Notes under the pieces: model-generated
Databases searched by the model: none
Told to the model about the DNA's origin: nothing
Seen by the model: the letters and a program-made list of their open reading frames with translations, nothing else
Source: Minisyncoccota bacterium
GTDB taxonomy: Bacteria; Patescibacteriota; Minisyncoccia; JAHIHE01; JAGLIN01
Direction: 5' to 3'
Assembly: GCA_023142995.1 (NCBI GenBank)
Contig: JAGLIM010000032.1
Location: 1-41,346 of the forward strand
Length of the DNA stretch: 41,346 nucleotides
Position numbers and translations under genes: made by a program
In this document: positions 32 through 39,907 of the stretch, piece after piece
How the letters are laid out: every line of letters starts with the position of its first letter
How positions within the stretch are numbered: position 1 is the first letter of the stretch

Positions 32-157
32 TATACTCCTTTATTAATATAATTTTGTATAATACGCCGTAGCTCTAATTAAGAATCAACTAATCTTTAG
101 ACAAAGAAATATTATCTTAAAATAATAAGATTAGAATTTTAAAAGCGGAGGAGTATA
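32..157. repeat. Direct-repeat element, copy A, with terminal inverted repeats
   Basis: About 126 bp bounded by a perfect 9-bp inverted repeat, TATACTCCT at 32-40 and AGGAGTATA at 149-157. It contains a TATAAT box (58-63), the conserved string ACGCCGTAGCTCT, an 8-bp inverted repeat CTAATCTT/AAGATTAG (91-98 and 128-135) and a near-palindrome at 110-127. The right arm doubles as a GGAG ribosome-binding site just before a 27-codon frame. A second copy lies about 190 bp downstream. Whether this is a small mobile element, a structured leader or an ncRNA gene cannot be decided from the window. Confidence 0.6.
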
Positions 158-158
158 A

Positions 159-242
159 ATGTCAAACTTAAAAAACAAAACAATAATATTGTTTATTTGT
201 TATTTCAAAAAGTATGATATCTATATTCCTTTGCTAAGATAA
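159..242 (+). CDS. Possible 27-residue leader-type peptide
   Basis: A short frame of 27 codons starts with ATG seven bases after a good GGAGGAG ribosome-binding site, which is rare in this window. The peptide begins MSNLKNKT and continues with a hydrophobic stretch (IILFICYF). It fills the spacer between element copies A and B. Copy B has the same ribosome-binding-site-like end but no ATG after it, so the frame may be chance. No family recognised. Confidence 0.2.
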   Translation: MSNLKNKTIILFICYFKKYDIYIPLLR

Positions 243-351
243 TTTCATATAATACGCCGTAGCTCTATAATTAAGAATCAACTAATCTTAAATAAAGATA
301 AATATTATCTTAAGATAATAAGAATATAATTTTAAAAAGCGAAGGAGTATA
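222..351. repeat. Direct-repeat element, copy B
   Basis: Second copy of the element at 32-157, about 85% alike by eye. It has TATATTCCT at 222-230 opposite AGGAGTATA at 343-351 (one mismatch, G-U compatible), TATAAT at 248-253 and the same ACGCCGTAGCTCT string. Its inner palindrome, TATTATCTTAAGATAATA at 303-320, is perfect here, whereas copy A has one mismatch. No start codon follows the GGAG. Confidence 0.6.
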
Positions 352-412
352 CACAAGTAGAATAACACAAAACTGCATAATAGACAAGTAATAGATTATG
401 TCGTAAAATGAA

Positions 413-437
413 GTTATATCGTTATATCGTTATATCG
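413..437. repeat. 8-bp tandem repeat (GTTATATC x3)
   Basis: Three perfect tandem copies of GTTATATC plus one base, in the spacer between the direct-repeat elements and the recombinase gene. No function is evident. Confidence 0.7.
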
Positions 438-503
438 TCCTACTATCAAAACTATCAAAAAAAACCTTATACTAAGGCTTAAATGCTTGAAAGTATGAAA
501 TGC

Positions 504-582
504 GGAGAACCTACTTTTTTATTTAGTCAAAGAGGTCCTCCTACCATCCAATTATTTTATATCGAGGGGATGTGGATGGTAG
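504..582 (+). other. Two adjacent hairpins upstream of the recombinase
   Basis: The first potential stem pairs GGAGAACCT (504-512) with AGGTCCTCC (533-541), 8 of 9 paired. The second pairs CTACCATCC (541-549) with GGATGGTAG (574-582), 9 of 9. They share one base and end 26 bp before the recombinase ATG. They could be a structured 5' leader or a recombination-site fold. There is no T-tract after them, so a simple terminator is unlikely. Confidence 0.4.
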
Positions 583-3589: not shown

Positions 3590-3656
3590 AATATTCTTCG
3601 ACCTTGTGGAGAAGAGAGCCACGTGCGTAGAGTTCTCCATAAGGTCGAACAATATT
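3590..3656. repeat. Dispersed AATATT-ended palindrome, copy 4
   Basis: A 67-bp member almost identical to the copy at 1778-1844, in the same orientation, including the loop AGAGAGCCACGTGCGTA. Confidence 0.85.
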
Positions 3657-6734: not shown

Positions 6735-6797
6735 AATATTGTTCGACCTTGTGGAGAACTATTCGCGAATGACTTCTCCACAAGGTCGAAGAATATT
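6735..6797. repeat. Dispersed AATATT-ended palindrome, copy 5
   Basis: The best-paired member. GTTCGACCTTGTGGAGAA faces TTCTCCACAAGGTCGAA across a short loop containing TTCGCGAA, itself a palindrome. Ends AATATT at 6735-6740 and 6792-6797. The left flank ATCATATCT is shared with copy 1. Confidence 0.9.
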
Positions 6798-31638: not shown

Positions 31639-31766
31639 AATATTTTTCGACCTTGTGGAGAAATCAATCGCATTTAGTTCTCCACAAGGTCGAACAATAT
31701 TTTAACATAGTTCTCCACAAGGTCGAACAATATTTTAACATAGTTTTTCACAAAGTCGAACAGTAT
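31639..31766. repeat. AATATT-ended palindrome, copy 6, followed by 33-bp tandem half-copies
   Basis: A full 63-bp palindrome (31639-31701; TTCGACCTTGTGGAGAA ... TTCTCCACAAGGTCGAA) is followed by two tandem 33-bp units (31701-31733 and 31734-31766). Each begins TTTAACATAG and carries only the right arm of the palindrome. The last unit has four or five substitutions. The array fills most of the 290-bp spacer between the iscU-like and DUF4012 genes; no other gene is seen there. Confidence 0.85.
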
Positions 31767-39844: not shown

Positions 39845-39907
39845 AATATTGTTCGACTTTATGGAGAACTCTGCGCGAATGACTTCTCCACAAGGTCGAA
39901 GAATATT
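39845..39907. repeat. Dispersed AATATT-ended palindrome, copy 9
   Basis: A 63-bp member with GTTCGACTTTATGGAGAA on the left and TTCTCCACAAGGTCGAA on the right. Its loop combines features of copies 5 (CGAATGAC) and 8 (CTCTGCGC). The left flank AAATATTTATATGGTATGAT matches copies 7 and 8. Confidence 0.88.

Follow-up and report, generated by a model that had tools for sequence, protein, structure and literature searches.

ERIC, one of the MITEs (non-autonomous DNA transposons moved in trans), is about 127 bp long. According to passages of PMC2229807, bacterial MITEs measure 100-200 bp, carry terminal repeats with TA at the termini and give rise to stem-loop transcripts, and effects on transcripts are reported for Correia and ERIC elements in parts of that source and of PMC10969869. 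A limited literature search found no paper linking MITEs with Patescibacteria or Parcubacteria. The DNA analysed here (the window, a stretch of 41,346 nucleotides) begins at base 1 of contig C26 in a genome (G000) of 1,483,497 bases and 95 contigs. Near its left edge, two repeats lie on the plus strand (copy A, 32-157; copy B, 222-351), followed on the same strand by a gene for a tyrosine recombinase of 306 aa (609-1529; XerA/XerC/XerD-like, NCBIfam NF040815 above cut-off and Pfam PF00589; xer below). Both repeats belong to a dispersed family, M1, which is very probably a MITE like RUP, Correia or ERIC and is a previously undescribed family within this known kind of element.

The two tandem elements had already been recognised in the preliminary description, and the sequence bears them out. 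Copies A and B, both of subfamily 1, are direct repeats whose first 50 nt are 86% identical, as against 92% for an inner block of 38 nt. Copy A ends in TATACTCCT (32-40) and AGGAGTATA (149-157), copy B in TATATTCCT (222-230) and AGGAGTATA (343-351); the 9-bp terminal inverted repeats that had been ascribed to both are exact in A but carry one mismatch in B. Copy A proper would be 34-155 if the terminal TA is a target duplication. Inside each copy, on the plus strand, a TATAAT is followed by the core ACGCCGTAGCTCT, together spanning 58-76 in A (TATAAT from 58, core from 64) and 248-266 in B (from 248 and 254). The core was thus found in both copies as described. The TATAAT box is present in both as well, but it is internal to the element and has no obvious -35, and the segment is promoter-like by prediction. 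The core also looks like a second, diverged copy of the element end (TACTCCTTTGCT). Folding of the single copies is uneven (z -1.8 for A, z -4.0 for B). A 27-codon frame (159-242, plus strand) begins at the right end of copy A, with its ATG at 159 where that end meets the flank, and no ATG lies directly past the right end of copy B, both as first reported; by eye, the aligned stretch of the relative G007 has no counterpart of this frame, which is judged to be an accident of the junction. The likeness of the ends to a ribosome-binding site is coincidental, the AGGAG of the right end being terminal-repeat sequence.

How far does the repeat extend beyond the window? Positions 1-600 give 67 matches in the own genome (E up to 10), the best of them outside the window at E 2.9e-46, and the similarity of A and B is therefore not due to chance; queries from two other subfamilies give 31 and 26 matches, mostly at the same places. 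Further copies and the core, whose complete absence elsewhere the preliminary description would have held against its array, were sought in the genome and found, which points to a transposable repeat: M1 has 25 near-complete copies, besides fragments and a copy truncated at the end of a contig. Before the count, partial copies were set aside (seven from the set used for ends, flanks and lengths, eight from that used for subfamilies), and a MAFFT alignment of 27 copies omits fragments and the copy C6. The ends of the 25 copies read TATACTCCTTTGCT/AGCGAAGGAGTATA with variation, sequence conservation stops at these termini, and the terminal inverted repeats enclose no transposase ORF. End to end, 23 of the 25 measure 126-130 bp; the longer copies are C47 (145 bp, with an internal tandem repeat) and C6 (286 bp), which is one of the 25 and contains a nested insertion of 150-odd bp. 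Three subfamilies have both ends and the core ACGCCG(TA/CA)GC in common, and also TATAAT except in subfamily 3, where the two ends can pair with each other along about 24 bp (by eye; the fold of one copy agrees). Among the 27 aligned copies, nearest-neighbour identity is 0.86-0.94 (gaps not counted) and no pair is identical, so recent activity is unlikely and M1 has probably not been mobile of late.

Other repeats occur together with M1. One M1 copy has a different element, with TAGGACCACTACACAAATAAT as its inverted ends, inserted in it (L021, 2587-2872), and a third repeat, terminated by sequences similar to GGAAGCTCTGAAAAAC / GTTTTTCAGANGTTCC, adjoins M1 copies in the flanks of L023 and L030, one copy being truncated. 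A gene-poor stretch of about 3 kb (L061, 3700-6600) holds several full and partial M1 copies.

Among 37 genomes searched, the own included, six yield matches at E of 0.001 or lower. In G005, of the same family and another genus, there are three M1 matches at E 1.4e-13 or better, while each of the four other genomes has a single short match (about 40-60 nt) that is doubtful; G007 and G003 have no M1 anywhere in the genome. The exact M1 pattern is matched once among genome contigs, in a MAG (L065) whose label reads Candidatus Parcubacteria, and not at all in viral contigs. Phages and plasmids searched with the window sequence returned only matches that were short or to the recombinase gene.

The best evidence that M1 was inserted comes from relatives, in sites at which the element is missing. 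The gap between rpoA and rplQ is 155 nt in G000, with M1 (C21); in G007, whose RplQ is the most similar among the relatives, it is 29 nt and the flanks align without M1. The gap is 19-40 nt in all 12 relatives measured (five by script at plus-strand loci, seven from tblastn coordinates; the contig of G001 ends there), none of them with M1. Rows for mreB on the minus strand were left out of the script's results. The second clean pair sets G005, with M1 upstream of a DUF4012-type gene (C44), against G001, where the left flank is 84% identical and M1 is absent. Less exact alignments likewise lack M1 between idi and Nif3 (C80) in G003, between ftsZ and nrdD (C68b) in G007 and G003, at the C36 site in G007 and G003 and at the C8 site in G007. 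At the window locus itself (rpsO-xer), G007, G003, G001 and G005 have xer and similar upstream landmarks, by eye, without A and B.

The preliminary description had placed the array beside the recombinase as possible recombination sites. Adjacency, tandem arrangement and palindromic ends in the window do suit an att-, attC- or dif-like role of A and B, or one as regulatory sites of the neighbouring enzyme, but 23 of the 25 near-complete copies lie on contigs other than that of the recombinase, the genes next to copies are diverse (rpoA, mreB, ftsZ and idi among them) and all four relatives just named have xer without M1 copies. Only A and B of the 25 are known near this gene. As xer stands without M1 in relatives and M1 is mostly found elsewhere, the neighbourhood is coincidental, and a role as sites of the recombinase is most improbable. 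The adjacent xer gene would accordingly be a bystander, with no part in the mobility of M1.

Other features lie near this edge. A likely xer promoter, TAGACA-17-TAAAAT (381-409, plus strand), is outside M1 and has similar counterparts in relatives. Two hairpins on the plus strand (504-541 and 542-581; -25.6 kcal/mol, z -2.8, and z -2.4 over a wider stretch) are present before the recombinase gene as had been described, but form no part of the tandem repeat, because the region 470-600 has no match elsewhere in the own genome. Paired stems with GGGGATGA or a similar sequence stand upstream of xer in three of the four relatives (G001, G003 and G005; not G007); against shuffled sequence the fold in G003 shows no advantage (z -0.65) and that in G005 only a slight one (z -1.6). 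The segment 504-581 may be an xer leader RNA, a lead drawn from four sequences, and Rfam at gathering and E-value thresholds gave no family for these hairpins. The name "xerDC" RNA motif was considered for them and dropped, as the passage of PMC2864571 in which the word stands concerns the STAXI motif. An element reaching past the left edge, also envisaged earlier, disagrees with synteny: xer is directly preceded in G007 and G003 by the gene of ribosomal protein S15 (rpsO), on the opposite strand, and therefore rpsO probably lies just beyond the left edge of the window.

Could M1 instead be kept for a function in RNA? The preliminary description had counted regulatory RNAs among its options, and the element would then be a transcribed structured RNA or a cis-regulatory leader made of promoter, hairpin and ribosome-binding site. 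TATAAT and core are indeed kept across subfamilies 1 and 2 and, with small changes, in two other genomes; some copies precede a gene by 16-50 nt in the sense orientation; and many fold better than shuffles (z is below -2 for 19 of 27 copies when the plus strand is folded and for 13 when the minus strand is), most strongly those of subfamily 2 and C47. However, there is no consistent position upstream of genes: the downstream gene, as judged from ORFs of at least 80 aa by a mechanical caller, is on the same strand as M1 in 13 cases and on the opposite strand in 12, which amounts to random orientation. In addition, no -35 is clear, TATAAT is lost in subfamily 3, and M1 is absent at the xer locus in 4 of 4 relatives and at rpoA-rplQ in 12 of 12. 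Structure conservation, the proposed check, does not help this reading either, as RNAalifold on the 27-copy alignment returned no pairs and hence neither consensus structure nor covariation, the left ends of subfamily 3 being misaligned there. Rfam, at gathering and E-value thresholds, gave nothing credible for M1. A retained RNA is thus very unlikely, and nothing found requires a host function for M1, though passive effects on transcripts are possible. The copies are intergenic, apart from one of the 25 (C36) that overlaps a 138-aa ORF judged spurious. At L014, around 2008-2024, the last codons and the stop of idi (isopentenyl-diphosphate isomerase) come from the left end of M1.

With M1 taken as a MITE, the insertion sites bear on the kind of enzyme that moved it. 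An ungapped boundary scan of the two clean sites ends in a four-way tie in which each boundary is the element plus 2 bp. The tied boundaries fit a duplication of TA or, with a shift of one base, an insertion that duplicates nothing, and a target duplication longer than 3 bp is absent at both sites; at the C21 site the TA reading requires one extra substitution beside TA. In the flanks of the 25 copies, ATT to the left and AAT to the right of TA are one motif read from both sides (counts beside TA: left, read back, A15 A21 T21; right, A22 A12 T11), with a stronger preference on the left. The boundaries of element plus 2 bp and this two-sided motif favour a MITE of the IS630/Tc1-mariner type, and we lean towards a helper of the DDE (IS630-like) class. 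The ends of M1 (about 14 bp, imperfectly extending to about 24-30 bp) would serve as binding sites for a transposase acting in trans, which would insert the element, in either orientation, into AT-rich ATT-TA-AAT sites between genes, and TA would probably be duplicated in an IS630/Tc1-mariner-like manner. A search for PF13358 (DDE_3) found nothing in either G000 or G005 and a match in one of 14 family genomes. No pair of M1 ends encloses a longer element among the matches listed (about 100 of 296 places, with at most 3 mismatches). The helper would be lost or absent, and may also have gone undetected.

Alternatively, a Y1 (HUH) tyrosine transposase or a RAYT might move M1 as single-stranded DNA, in which case the long imperfect hairpin would be cut out and would re-enter on the 3' side of a target resembling ATNTA, with no duplication. 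ATNTA is present already in both clean empty sites, the boundary without duplication ties with the TA boundary, and the left flank of M1 is the more conserved. The enzymes are also at hand, with three Y1_Tnp matches in G000 and five in G005, and the Y1 gene of C6 exceeds the NCBIfam cut-off for RAYT (88.6 versus 80 bits). Yet 13 of 14 family genomes have Y1 matches, clear M1 is missing from most of these genomes, and none of the three Y1 genes in G000 is flanked by M1. According to parts of PMC2817692, moreover, RAYT genes are always found between two inverted REPs and IS200/IS605 elements have no terminal inverted repeats, whereas M1 has such repeats and a target consensus that is symmetric with respect to direction. 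Transfer by a Y1 enzyme is therefore considered unlikely. A Y1_Tnp (RAYT-like) gene lies at L154, 1215-1871, between two ORFs that we take to be pheS and pheT.

A mixed origin is slightly less probable again. M1 would in that case be a long hairpin element that depends for its mobility on a domesticated Parcubacterial Y1/RAYT enzyme acting on single strands and that carries a promoter-like core (TATAAT-ACGCCG) and a duplicated internal end, in effect a MITE/REP hybrid, for which a small literature search found no precedent. If it were true, M1 would bring promoters or processing hairpins with it where it has inserted between essential genes of the same direction (rpoA-rplQ, mreB-mreC, ftsZ-nrdD).

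The window also contains another, more densely spaced hairpin repeat, about 67 nt long (AATATTGTTCGACCTTGTGGAGAA ... TTCTCCATAAAGTCGAACAATATT), which is REP-like, and the genome has a RAYT-type gene. It occurs at 1675-1741, 1778-1844, 3590-3656, 6735-6797, 31639-31734, from 34207 onward, from 37664 onward and at 39845-39907; the pattern of one arm has 12 matches in the window. Two copies fold with z -5.5 and -6.1, and the repeat adjoins the M1 copies C8 and C63 as well.

As a MITE, M1 is of a common kind; the bacterial group that carries it has received little study. Genomes of Patescibacteria and Parcubacteria are small, and the presence of M1 within the pairs rpoA-rplQ and mreB-mreC indicates that small repeats shape intergenic regions even in such genomes. 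It also calls for caution, in that sequence resembling promoters, ribosome-binding sites and hairpins next to a recombinase may not belong to the recombinase.

Among described repeats, REP/BIME with RAYT resemble M1 in being palindromic and intergenic and in the presence of a RAYT-type gene in the genome; unlike them, M1 is bounded by terminal inverted repeats, measures about 128 bp and flanks no Y1 gene. ERIC/IRU of enterobacteria are of similar length to M1 and likewise palindromic and intergenic, and TA stands at their termini (PMC2229807); they belong to a different host phylum and are likened to M1 by features, not by sequence. Correia/NEMIS of Neisseria, at about 107-155 bp, share with M1 terminal inverted repeats with TA, and they also carry promoter-like sequences and give folded transcripts (parts of PMC2229807 and PMC10969869); in M1, promoter function and RNase III processing would be hypothetical. 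M1, in contrast, has only about 25 near-complete copies and again a host of a different phylum. RUP has a resident IS630-Spn1 with matching ends, whereas no partner was found for M1, and here too the comparison is drawn on features, not on sequence. Like M1, RUP of Streptococcus pneumoniae and other IS630-type MITEs, as portrayed in sections of PMC2229807, are short and non-coding, have terminal inverted repeats and use a TA-containing target without a long target duplication.
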